Part shown: piece by piece, positions 1,963 to 5,090 of the stretch
How the letters are laid out: the number at the start of each line of letters is the position of its first letter
Position numbering within the stretch: the first letter of the stretch is position 1
Translations under genes and position numbers: made by a program
The notes under the pieces: generated by a model
The model's database searches: none
The model's input: the letters and a program-made list of their open reading frames with translations, nothing else
Told to the model about the DNA's origin: nothing
Virus record (IMG/VR): IMGVR_UViG_3300036790_000374
Location: 1-26,809 of that record
Reading direction: 5' to 3' (one strand)
Source of the DNA: a virus
Length of the DNA: 26,809 bases

Positions 1963-2526
1963 GTGAACAACCAGCAAAATGCGTTTCTGGTCAAGATTGT
2001 GCCTGACGCGCAGAACTCGCAGAACCATTGGGGTGTTCCCGCTTCCGTAACCATTGCCCAGGCGATTGAAGAGTCGAGCGACCAAAAGGGCTGGGGCCAG
2101 AGCAGCCTGGCGCTGCTGGCGAACAACTACTTCGGCATCAAGGGCACGCACCTTCTCGAACCCGACACCTACATCAAGGAACCGACTCACGAGTACATTG
2201 CCGGAAAGCTGCAGGAAGTGGATGCCGACTTTGAGCGGTATCCGTCTGTCGGCGCGAGCTTCGATGCGCATGCGCAGTTGCTGGCCACCGCGCTTCGCTA
2301 TAAGCCGGCGATGGCCGCGCGCAGCGACCCTGAAAGCTTCTGCATTCAACTCCAGAAATGCGGCTACTCGACCAACCCGAATTACGCGGTGGACCTCTGG
2401 CGCTGCATTCAGGACTACGACCTTACGCAGTACGATCTTCCGCCCGCTCCGGCGGCTGCTGGATCCACGCCAACATCAACCGCGCCGGCGCTACCGGCAG
2501 AAGGAAGCACCAATGAAAAACCGTAA
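1963..2526 (+). CDS. endolysin: glucosaminidase (FlgJ-like peptidoglycan hydrolase)
   Basis: This 187-residue protein has a GTG start preceded by GGAGGGG at 1951-1957. The glucosaminidase/muramidase domain spans about residues 22-150. It begins with S-V-T-I-A-Q-A-I-E-E (catalytic Glu at 36 or 37), then G-W-G-x-S-x-L-A, A-N-N-Y-F-G-I-K-G and, further on, Y-x-S-V-G-A-S-F-x-A-H with A-T-A-L-R-Y-K, all typical of the FlgJ/LytG family that cuts glycan strands. The last 30 residues are Pro/Ala/Thr-rich. No signal peptide is visible, so release would need a holin, and a candidate lies at 4144-4584. Compared with FlgJ there is a short insertion between the catalytic Glu and G-W-G. The 3' end overlaps the lipoprotein start by 14 bases. 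A virion-associated hydrolase is less likely from the position among lysis genes. Confidence 0.85.
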   Translation: MNNQQNAFLVKIVPDAQNSQNHWGVPASVTIAQAIEESSDQKGWGQSSLALLANNYFGIKGTHLLEPDTYIKEPTHEYIAGKLQEVDADFERYPSVGASFDAHAQLLATALRYKPAMAARSDPESFCIQLQKCGYSTNPNYAVDLWRCIQDYDLTQYDLPPAPAAAGSTPTSTAPALPAEGSTNEKP

Positions 2527-3163
2527 GAACGCAGCTACGCGGCTGCTCGGCGGACTGGCTCTGTGTGCGCTGGCGATGTTCGCCGGCGTGCCCATGACCG
2601 GCTGCACGCAGGCGCAGAAGACGAATGTCGCCCAGGAGATTGTGAACTGGGTTCCGACGCTGGTATCCGCTGCCGACACTGTCAATGGACTGGTGCAGGC
2701 CGCCGACCCGGCGACGGTGGCGATCCTCGGCCCGATCACGCTGGGCATCAATACGCTTGCGCCGCAGGTGATGACGGCCGCGAAGAACTACCTGGCGAAC
2801 CCCATGCAGACGACGCTGCAGGAGTTGCAGGCGCTAACCACGCAGATACAGCAGAATACGAATGCCGCGCTGCTCGCTGCCGCCGGGATCAAAGACCCGG
2901 CGAGTCAGGCTGCCGCAATCAAGAACATCAACCTGCTGGCTTCCGCCGCGCAGGCGCTGCTGGCGCTGGTGCAAAGCATCAGCACGCCGGCGCAGGCCAA
3001 GGCTATGGCGGCGCATGTGACCGTGACGCTGGCGCAGGTGCGGCCTTATCTGGACGATGCCCGAATGCAAGCTGCGGCCGAACGCGTGGGCCGCGACCTG
3101 GAATTACGGCAGGCGCCGACGGTCGGCCAGTTTTACGCATACGAAGCGCGTGCAGGCTTCTGA
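2513..3163 (+). CDS. predicted lipoprotein, helical, lysis region
   Basis: This 216-residue protein starts at the ATG at 2513; the frame is open further upstream, but only this start gives a signal peptide and it has an AAGGAAG just before it. Residues 1-31 form a lipoprotein signal: basic K-N-R-K-N-A-A-T-R, a hydrophobic core, and the lipobox M-T-G-C with Cys31. The mature part is Ala/Gln/Leu-rich and almost wholly helical, with no second membrane segment. The gene sits between the endolysin and the nuclease, overlapping both neighbours. That place would suit an outer-membrane spanin, but it is longer than a typical Rz1 and no partner Rz is apparent. An exclusion lipoprotein is another option. 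The family is not recognised. Confidence 0.72.
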   Translation: MKNRKNAATRLLGGLALCALAMFAGVPMTGCTQAQKTNVAQEIVNWVPTLVSAADTVNGLVQAADPATVAILGPITLGINTLAPQVMTAAKNYLANPMQTTLQELQALTTQIQQNTNAALLAAAGIKDPASQAAAIKNINLLASAAQALLALVQSISTPAQAKAMAAHVTVTLAQVRPYLDDARMQAAAERVGRDLELRQAPTVGQFYAYEARAGF

Positions 3164-3315
3164 TGTCGCGGCCGATTACCTGCAACATGTGTGCCAAGGT
3201 CTTCCGCGGCGCGGGCGCATCGCGTGTGCTGCGGAAGGTTCTCTTCTTTTTTTGCCCTCGCTGTTGGGTTAACCGCATGTTATGCGAGGCGTTTATGAAA
3301 CAGGTGGCGCGATGA
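3163..3315 (+). CDS. 50-residue zinc-ribbon-like small protein
   Basis: The ATG at 3163 shares its A with the preceding TGA, and the stop at 3313-3315 overlaps the next ATG, so the gene is locked between two coupled genes. The product has two CxxC knuckles, C7-N-M-C10 and C31-P-R-C34, separated by 20 mainly basic and hydrophobic residues (K-V-L-F-F-F just before the second), plus a lone C41. Two CxxC pairs at this distance are typical of zinc ribbons such as Com-like or transcription-factor-type ribbons. Mu's Com, a small zinc-binding regulator of mom translation, is a formal analogue, but no sequence similarity is claimed. It could instead be an out-of-frame stretch, but the tight double coupling and paired cysteines argue for a gene. 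Confidence 0.5.
   Translation: MSRPITCNMCAKVFRGAGASRVLRKVLFFFCPRCWVNRMLCEAFMKQVAR
3201..3253 (+). terminator. possible intrinsic terminator/attenuator inside the zinc-ribbon gene
   Basis: CTTCCGC (3201-3207) pairs with GCGGAAG (3231-3237) around a 23-base G+C-rich loop. A pyrimidine stretch follows that ends in seven T (3247-3253). This is the shape of a rho-independent terminator with an over-long loop. It lies within a reading frame, so it may only be coding sequence. If active it would reduce expression of the nuclease gene relative to the lipoprotein. Confidence 0.3.
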
Positions 3316-3968
3316 ATGTCATCACGAAAACTTCGAGGGTTATGCGGCGTGCCGGCGCGGTCTTGATGTATTGCGGACTGATCCTCGCGTGCGGGGTTCT
3401 TCAGCGCAGTTGCACCGGCGGCGGCTCGATGCGGGCGGTGCATGCCGAATCCACAAAGCCGATCCCGACTCAGGCCCCGGCCCCGGTTCAGGCCGTCGTC
3501 GTTCACTACTCGCCGGCGGAGAACCTGGAACCTATCGACGTAGAGCTGCTCGACCAGGCGAAGACTACGCTCGATATCTCCACCTTCGCCATGGACGACA
3601 AGCCCATTGCGGAGGAGCTGGTGAAGCTGGCCGGCCGCGGCGTGTCTGTCCGGATATACCGCGATCGGACGCAATACTCCGGCGAGGTGGCCAGGGGCAA
3701 AAAGGGCGGCGTGGATCTGAGCCAGCTTTTCGCCGGCCAGCCGAATATCCATCTTCGAGTGAAGGGCTCGGTGGCCCTCGCGCACCTGAAGGCTTTCGTG
3801 GTGGATGGGAAGCTTCTGCGGGAGGGGTCGGCGAACTGGAGCGTCCAGGGCGAGAAGGTGCAGGACAACTCGCTCCTGGTGGTCCGCGATCCGGCGGCCG
3901 TGGCCAGGTTTGAAACGAACTTTGAAGCCATCTGGGCGCGGCCGGGAAACCAGGTGATTTACCCCTGA
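3312..3968 (+). CDS. exported phospholipase-D-like nuclease (Nuc type, single HKD motif)
   Basis: This 218-residue protein starts at an ATG overlapping the previous TGA (ATGA); an ATG at 3282 is in frame but less coupled. Residues 10-30 form a basic then hydrophobic export signal, with Cys27 in a lipobox-like I-L-A-C. A PLD domain follows, about 62-212, with H158-L-K160-x4-D165 and the downstream G-S-A-N-W-S (172-177), N186 and a terminal F-x-x-x-W. One HKD motif and this length match the Nuc-type endonucleases, which act as dimers on DNA; lipid hydrolysis is also known in the superfamily. An exported nuclease in a lysis block could degrade incoming phage DNA in the periplasm or host DNA at lysis. 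Both roles are inferred. Confidence 0.82.
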   Translation: MNVITKTSRVMRRAGAVLMYCGLILACGVLQRSCTGGGSMRAVHAESTKPIPTQAPAPVQAVVVHYSPAENLEPIDVELLDQAKTTLDISTFAMDDKPIAEELVKLAGRGVSVRIYRDRTQYSGEVARGKKGGVDLSQLFAGQPNIHLRVKGSVALAHLKAFVVDGKLLREGSANWSVQGEKVQDNSLLVVRDPAAVARFETNFEAIWARPGNQVIYP

Positions 3969-4143: not shown

Positions 4144-4584
4144 ATGGGTAAGGTTCGGGCGGCGGTGGCGGCATGGTTCGCCGGGAAGAAGACGATCCTC
4201 GGCGGACTGGTGGTAATGGCGGCGGCGGTAGCCGGCGTTTGGACGGGAAAGCTGGACGCGGTAACCGGCGTCGGACTCTTCGGGTTCGGGCTTTCGGTTG
4301 CCGGCTATGGCGACAAGGCAAACCGTCATCAGGCGGAGCTTTTGACCGCGCTGCAGGACGTGGCAAAGGCTGGATATGAGCAACGGGCCGGGGAGCCATT
4401 GAAGGCGATCGCGGGCGAGCTGCTGTCGAGTGCCGCTCCGCTTCTGCCGGGGATTGCCGCGACGGCCGGGGCGAGCCTTCATATCTCGGGCGCGACGGCC
4501 GCCGATGTGACAGCGATTGCCCAGAGCGTCGTGTTGGGAGTCAGGGCACAAGTTAAGCCTGCGCCGGAGGCTGCCGCAAAGTGA
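4144..4584 (+). CDS. putative holin (small protein with two membrane segments)
   Basis: This is a 146-residue protein with a purine-rich ribosome-binding site just before its ATG. Two hydrophobic segments stand at about 17-34 and 38-55, joined by a short W-T-G-K-L-D turn and followed by a basic/polar stretch (Y-G-D-K-A-N-R-H-Q). The rest is Ala-rich, helical and ends in Lys. Two short membrane helices, a charged C-terminal part and a place directly before the packaging genes match the holins of Mu-like phages. No signature proves the function. It overlaps the next start by a TGATG. Confidence 0.55.
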   Translation: MGKVRAAVAAWFAGKKTILGGLVVMAAAVAGVWTGKLDAVTGVGLFGFGLSVAGYGDKANRHQAELLTALQDVAKAGYEQRAGEPLKAIAGELLSSAAPLLPGIAATAGASLHISGATAADVTAIAQSVVLGVRAQVKPAPEAAAK

Positions 4585-5090
4585 TGGGCCTGGGATCGAG
4601 GTCGGATGAGTCGCGAGCGGCGGAAGTTGCCGTAGGATTTCGCGGCGGCTGGTTTCGCCATATCAGCATGGCGATCGGCGGCGCCAGCGGAGCCGCGGTT
4701 GCGTTGGGCGGCTACGAGGTTCTTCGCAGTCAGCCCGCCAGGGCCTTTGCGCTGCTGCAGGGTTGGGGTCCGACGTTTCTCCTCGTGTTGGTTGCGCTGT
4801 TGATTGTCGGCAAATTCCTTGACGGCCTGAACCAGACCGTTCGTGAGAGTTTCAGCGTGATGGCGAGCGGCGTTCAATCGAGCGCCCAGGCAGCGAACCG
4901 CCAGGCCGATGCCCTGGGGCGGCTGGCGGACCAGGGCAATAAGCAGGCCGAGGAGGTCCGGCGCCTCGCGATTTATGCGGCCCAGGAATTCCCTGGAGTC
5001 TATGACCGGTTCGACAAGCAGGACGCGGTGTTGGCCGCATTGACACAGGAAGTGCGAGCGCTCAACGGACGAGGAAAAAATGGCGACTGA
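4584..5090 (+). CDS. membrane-anchored coiled-coil protein, DUF2730/Mu gp25-like by position
   Basis: The product has 168 residues from an ATG sharing a base with the previous TGA; a GTG at 4581 is an alternative. Two hydrophobic stretches (about 26-45 and 62-78) are followed by a long helical region (about 82-135) with heptad-like Ala, Leu and Gln spacing. The end of the protein has Y-D-R-F-D-K-Q-D-A-V. In Mu-type phages the gene between the lysis genes and gp26/gp27 is a DUF2730 protein with an N-terminal membrane helix and a coiled coil, and this gene has that layout, though it is longer. It might also be a spanin-like protein spanning the periplasm. Function unknown. Confidence 0.55.
   Translation: MGLGSRSDESRAAEVAVGFRGGWFRHISMAIGGASGAAVALGGYEVLRSQPARAFALLQGWGPTFLLVLVALLIVGKFLDGLNQTVRESFSVMASGVQSSAQAANRQADALGRLADQGNKQAEEVRRLAIYAAQEFPGVYDRFDKQDAVLAALTQEVRALNGRGKNGD

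Follow-up and report, generated by a model that had tools for sequence, protein, structure and literature searches.

A Lysis-Block Slot Filled by Exchangeable Nuclease-like Proteins with Export-like N-Termini in Mu-like Phages of Probable Acidobacteriaceae Hosts

A slot in the lysis block of a Mu-like phage and its relatives holds nuclease-like proteins of different families, each with an export-like N-terminus. Both the conservation of this slot and the exchange of catalytic domains within it are evident at the level of sequence. In the phage described here, the slot holds a PLD-family protein, for which a role at lysis is the reading that we lean towards.

The window, meaning the whole stretch of DNA that was analyzed, is a 26.8 kb virus record and is Mu-like by gene content. 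Its host group is probably Acidobacteriaceae (or Acidobacteria), because five contigs from Acidobacteriaceae or Acidobacteria genome bins hold relatives of the window lipoprotein. The gene order is endolysin, holin candidate, membrane protein at the Mu gp25 position, Mu Gp27-type small terminase, large terminase, and portal. The features of the lysis block are as follows:

1963..2526, plus strand: endolysin of the glucosaminidase type (PF01832, E=1.4e-27; PHROG endolysins); the lysis block begins here
2513..3163, plus strand: lipoprotein of 216 aa with Cys31 in MTGC, predicted helical, conserved in Acidobacteriota phages
3163..3315, plus strand: zinc-ribbon-like protein of 50 aa (C-x2-C ... 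C-x2-C-W ... C), with relatives in L184 and L203/L204
3312..3968, plus strand: PLD-family nuclease-like protein of 218 aa with an export-like N-terminus, the slot gene (PF13091; 26 aligned phage relatives)
3312..3446, plus strand: probable export signal, PLD residues 1-45, with a basic start, a hydrophobic stretch, Cys34 (3411-3413), and VHA|E
3783..3836, plus strand: PLD catalytic motif H158-x-K160-x4-D165-x6-G172-S173-x-N175, its columns invariant in the phage PLD alignment
4144..4584, plus strand: candidate for the holin, a protein of two hydrophobic segments that matches PHROG holins weakly (E=0.055); relatives at the equivalent place
4581..5090, plus strand: membrane protein at the Mu gp25 position, the right border of the census slot; its order is conserved in related loci

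The end of the endolysin gene and the start of the lipoprotein gene overlap by 14 nt. The lipoprotein gene is coupled to the gene of the 50-aa protein by TGATG, and the latter to the PLD gene by ATGA. Neither a signal nor a SAR domain was seen in the endolysin, and DUF2730 was not matched by the membrane protein at 4581..5090. A D12-class DNA adenine methyltransferase (875-1762; PF02086, E=1.5e-21) directly precedes the lysis block, and its relatives occupy the equivalent place in L017, L143, L234, and others. A 191-aa ORF (217-792), located outside the head-gene block, weakly resembles Mu F-like minor head proteins over their C-terminal part (PF04233; its E of 7e-4 misses the cutoff).

The first-pass annotation had described three overlapping genes between the endolysin and the holin candidate, and its coordinates, overlaps, and motifs are all correct. 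The first was called a lipoprotein of 216 residues with Cys31; it has more than 20 relatives, in which the GC of the lipobox is invariant. The second was called a 50-residue protein with two CxxC pairs, and its five cysteines align in L184 and L203/L204. Since each of the three ORFs has relatives with conserved residues, they are real genes and not chance reading frames.

The PLD protein is matched by PF13091 (PLDc_2) with an E of 7.6e-19 and 68.3 bits, the cutoff being 27. It bears the H158 motif, HLKAFVVDGKLLREGSAN, and is a single domain of about 150 aa of the PLD-superfamily endonuclease type (Nuc/NucT). Cys34, H158, K160, D165, G172, S173, and N175 are invariant across the 26 aligned phage PLDs. 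The pattern H-x-K-x4-D-x6-G-S-x-N is present in 25 of the 26, and all 26 agree in the catalytic columns. Among solved structures, Nuc (1BYR, E=1.7e-6) matches best, which makes the protein kin to a solved nuclease, and it would be expected to act as one. It is not a NucT equivalog (34.5 bits, NCBIfam cutoff 297) or DISARM DrmC (35.9 bits, NCBIfam cutoff 133), and no further DISARM gene was seen among the window ORFs. Matches in named phages are weak. The only named one is the phospholipase D of phage WO (27% identity over 64%), which is likewise a PLD-family phage protein but belongs to another phage type and host.

Nuc of plasmid pKM101 (PDB 1BYR) and NucT of H. pylori, both nucleases and the closest PLDs to have been characterized, have the same single HKD domain and the same H-x-K-x4-D-x6-G-S-x-N pattern as the window PLD. 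Nuc is non-specific, and NucT is a periplasmic, membrane-associated nuclease (PMC5714352). Unlike both, the window PLD is phage-encoded, lies in a lysis block, and is distant in sequence.

In the first search with the lipoprotein, relatives were found to hold, at the place of the PLD gene, either a PLD or a protein with DHLIS...WPQP...KD, both with export-like N-termini. A census was then seeded with the small terminase to avoid selecting loci by their nuclease. It comprises the best 80 of 136 terminase loci, ranked by closeness to these terminases, and favors close relatives of the window. These loci form 48 clusters at 95% identity, of which 37 show the endolysin and 11 end before it. Of these 37 clusters (best 80 of 136 loci), 28 have the slot filled by a nuclease-like protein whose N-terminus is export-like. 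The occupant is a PLD in 23 (window included), HNH-like in four, and Endonuclease_NS in one. The PLD and HNH-like genes of the census clusters always lie between the endolysin and the gp25-position gene. The remaining ten clusters, with neither PLD nor HNH-like protein, were classified by eye. The nuclease is not essential, because, of the 37 clusters (best 80 of 136 loci), seven have no recognized nuclease and two others, L181 and L235, have a signal-like stub and no nuclease.

The HNH-like slot protein is present in L003, L006, L007, L018, L019, and L217. Its conserved motif is E-x-DHLIS-(I/L)-E-x-GG ... N-x-WPQP ... KD, and its Pfam matches are all sub-threshold. This motif and these matches make it a weakly recognized HNH-like family; its AlphaFold2 model is poor (pLDDT 54). 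No match was found in named phages when searched with the HNH-like protein of L018. The slot protein of L180 is a Serratia-type Endonuclease_NS (PF01223, E=1.2e-43, 149.8 bits, cutoff 23). Its N-terminus is signal-like, and homology to the other slot signals was not established by comparison. One close relative beyond L180 was identified, on a fragment with no visible Mu-like character. Endonuclease_NS-family genes annotated as periplasmic DNA/RNA non-specific endonucleases, with about 31% identity to L180, are also present in the jumbo phages Klebsiella K64-1 and RaK2, which are different phages.

Several other arrangements were observed around the slot. L196 has a single 324-aa ORF (L196:6711-7685) that opens with a holin-like domain (GKKTIVGG...) and runs on through a second hydrophobic stretch into a PLD domain. 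A prophage in an Acidobacteriaceae genome bin (L158:8987-9415) has a slot-type signal followed by a 142-aa protein without a recognized nuclease. Small proteins of about 83-100 aa, x83 and x87 (L008:8899-9150, L007:8632-8895, and relatives), precede the slot nuclease in most related phages. They have no known family, sometimes overlap the start of the nuclease, and are present in nuclease-less loci too. Within the lysis block, just upstream of the HNH-like gene, is a small LuxR-type helix-turn-helix protein with a zinc-ribbon-like CPxCGK start (L007:8895-9236, L004:8956-9294). Small exported-looking proteins that share the HNH-like motif were also found in non-Mu-like contigs (L100, L105-L108, L112, L120, and L123), about 0.5-1 kb from a lysozyme gene.

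Eight of the nine phage HNH-like signals resemble phage PLD signals, with scores of 52-128; the 61 control signals score 34 or less. These eight beat 299 or 300 of 300 shuffles, and the L018 signal does not. The clearest pair for comparison is L169 (PLD) and L217 (HNH-like), which are 80% identical in DNA over 1.87 kb. The identity spans the upstream small gene and the signal and stops at the YAQ codons. The catalytic domains that follow are unrelated in DNA, and identity resumes downstream at 85% and 92%. Read from its DNA, this pair is a natural swap in which the signal stayed and the catalytic domain changed.

PLD relatives with a signal or lipobox are also present in host-family genomes, and no phage gene was recognized nearby in the 14 host-family stretches around cellular PLDs that were read. 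Lipobox-bearing cellular PLDs related to the phage ones include L270:7411-8121 and L274:7028-7648. In the tree, the window PLD, L128, and L178 group with some cellular PLDs (84/72), and 23 other phage PLDs form a separate group (100/100). A separate origin of the window PLD is suggested by this tree, although the AU test does not reject one clade of phage PLDs (p=0.336). In its signal the window PLD resembles phage HNH-like proteins (score 58, 0/300 shuffles) and the other phage PLDs (score 50, 0/300 shuffles) but not cellular PLDs (score 26, 109/300 shuffles), as though a catalytic domain had been inserted behind a signal already resident there.

Export was judged by inspection, from hydrophobicity and motif, for all slot proteins. 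The PLD had been annotated as carrying an export signal. What is found is an export-like N-terminus by these two measures, which probably directs export, and to this is added a cysteine, Cys34, that is conserved in relatives at the end of the hydrophobic stretch. The sequence at that cysteine is lipobox-like in at least 17 of the 26 phage PLDs (for example, LAGC, LASC, and LTSC), a lower bound because the automatic count chose the wrong cysteine in several proteins, nearly all HNH-like ones included. The window PLD has a non-canonical QRSC there, and the VHA|E that comes next looks like a signal peptidase I site. Since a conserved cysteine ends the hydrophobic stretch of the signal, the PLD may itself also be a lipoprotein; alternatively, the mature enzyme may be free in the periplasm.

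The lipoprotein gene is flanked by the endolysin gene before and the zinc-ribbon gene after. Its family is well conserved, with the invariant GC lipobox, VAQEIVNW, and a C-terminal GF. The predicted structure is all-helical (pLDDT 74), a fold search against the PDB gave nothing at E<=0.001, and a search of named phages gave no match. At 216 aa, predicted all-helical, and with no i-spanin-like neighbor gene, it does not fit an outer-membrane spanin. The zinc-ribbon gene resembles its neighbors in GC3, its protein has no match in Pfam or PHROG, and it is rare among related phages.

Among the best 80 of 136 loci, the lipoprotein was detected in 10 of the 23 PLD clusters, two of the four HNH-like clusters, and two clusters without a recognized nuclease. 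The nearest PLD relative, L128 (62% identity), has neither lipoprotein nor zinc ribbon. Because the lipoprotein is also found in nuclease-less phages, the zinc ribbon is rare, and L128 has neither, the three genes are not a conserved unit. Conserved adjacency of the trio in related phages had been proposed as a check, and on this result the trio is rejected as one system: the lipoprotein and the zinc ribbon are present or absent irrespective of the nuclease. The joint action of lipoprotein and nuclease that the first-pass annotation suggested is not supported. By these comparisons, the conserved thing is the slot and not the trio.

Some lipoprotein ORFs have an extra hydrophobic domain preceding the lipobox (L004:7779-8615, L007:7779-8615, L018:7755-8597, L019:7761-8630, and the ORFs of L023 and L235). 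A separate downstream holin gene was not detected in phages with this N-terminal extension. The holin profile does not match the extension, so homology to the window holin is unsupported. These ORFs may be holin-lipoprotein fusions, or an internal start may be used.

Phage Mu shares with the window the order of endolysin, envelope proteins, gp25-position membrane protein, and packaging genes (gp22, gp23/23.1, and gp25 in Mu). In Mu, the endolysin is of the SAR type, a spanin pair sits at this place, and a nuclease is not described (PMC9239132). The window differs in its endolysin, in which no export signal was seen, and in having a holin candidate. The streptococcal prophage DNases (Spd1, Spd-3, and Sda1) are phage-encoded exported nucleases, as is proposed for the window PLD. 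DNases of S. pyogenes prophages were proposed to lower viscosity by cutting the DNA of the host once the phage has lysed it (PMC3629212), a role credited to Broudy et al. where that work is cited in PMC2658872. The two differ in that the streptococcal hosts are Gram-positive and spd-3 is transcribed from promoters of its own that the host regulates (PMC3629212), whereas the window PLD gene overlaps its neighbors in a Mu-like lysis block. Different nuclease families behind one signal type also set the relatives of the window apart. The window PLD has the PLD fold and is not of the streptococcal nuclease family; it resembles those DNases in way of working at most.

We consider it somewhat probable that the PLD is a lysis nuclease, made late, kept outside the cytoplasm, and meeting host DNA when the holin opens the membrane. 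This reading draws on the lysis-block position, the export-like signal, families with some non-specific members, and an activity conserved over fold. An exported, probably non-specific nuclease would be made in the late lysis block alongside the endolysin. The signal would carry it over the inner membrane, where the conserved cysteine would perhaps leave it anchored. Outside the cytoplasm, it would spare phage DNA during transposition and packaging. After holin and endolysin have breached the inner membrane and the wall, respectively, the nuclease would reach the spilled host chromosome and cut it. Viscosity would drop and virions would be released, their own DNA shielded by capsids. Nuclease activity, export, anchoring, late expression, and benefit to virion release are all inferred here. 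Related viruses swap the cutting part for unrelated enzymes and often keep the signal, a pattern suggesting that the virus benefits from an exported nuclease at lysis. Counted against a lysis role is that phage Mu lyses its host and no such gene is described there (PMC9239132). No description of this nuclease and lysis-block arrangement was found in the literature covered, most subscription journals lying outside that coverage.

An envelope nuclease in the lysis block had been annotated with two possible functions, superinfection exclusion and DNA degradation at lysis. The envelope nuclease gains from the unrelated nucleases with export-like N-termini that share the slot, and loses the joint role of the lipoprotein; of the two functions, degradation at lysis appears to fit the late lysis-block position better. 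Under exclusion, the nuclease would cut incoming DNA of other phages on its way through the periplasm. The conserved active site and export-like signal would serve this, and NucT, a periplasmic PLD nuclease, is linked to natural transformation (PMC5714352). The gene, however, is part of the lysis block and runs in the same direction as the endolysin, holin, and packaging genes, and a scan for sigma-70 promoters gave none that would be its own (weak evidence in Acidobacteria). Mu late genes are silent in the lysogen and expressed late in infection. By analogy, the PLD gene would be silent in a lysogen and come on too late to protect an infected cell, and exclusion is unlikely. The negative promoter scan and the overlapping genes in the lysis block also speak against a lysogen cargo gene (moron) expressed from the prophage, for example, in DNA uptake control or nutrient scavenging. 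Such a gene would agree with the related exported PLDs on host-family chromosomes outside phage genes, which imply a cellular role for the enzyme, and with the phages that have no PLD gene, but the slot is retained while the enzyme is swapped, and we regard a moron as quite improbable.

The nuclease might instead work beyond the lysed cell and aid virion spread by attacking the extracellular DNA of a biofilm or soil matrix, not the host chromosome, and the same anatomy and the same enzymes would serve. This reading has no specific support, and in many relatives the conserved cysteine suggests a membrane anchor, which would limit diffusion; it is improbable. The PLD superfamily also includes lipases, the gene sits among lysis genes, and a spanin pair was not identified in the window, so the protein might be a phospholipase that aids envelope breakage at lysis. 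The best solved match is a nuclease, though, and Endonuclease_NS or HNH-like proteins fill the same slot behind similar signals. Because the slot enzyme is exchanged with other nucleases, nuclease rather than lipase activity appears to be kept, and a lipase is very improbable.

Lysis by phages of Gram-negative hosts is usually described in three steps, one per envelope layer, by the holin, the endolysin, and an outer-membrane disruptor. It is quite possible, if somewhat short of probable, that the Mu-like lysis block in Acidobacteria has an extra element, an envelope-held nuclease retained for what it does rather than for how it folds, with PLD, HNH-like, and Serratia-type domains exchanged by recombination behind a conserved export signal. 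If so, a step that handles the spilled chromosome would be added to lysis, and the old viscosity proposal for phage DNases would become directly testable. The design of a signal with an exchangeable domain would also give a rule for spotting such genes in unannotated phages.
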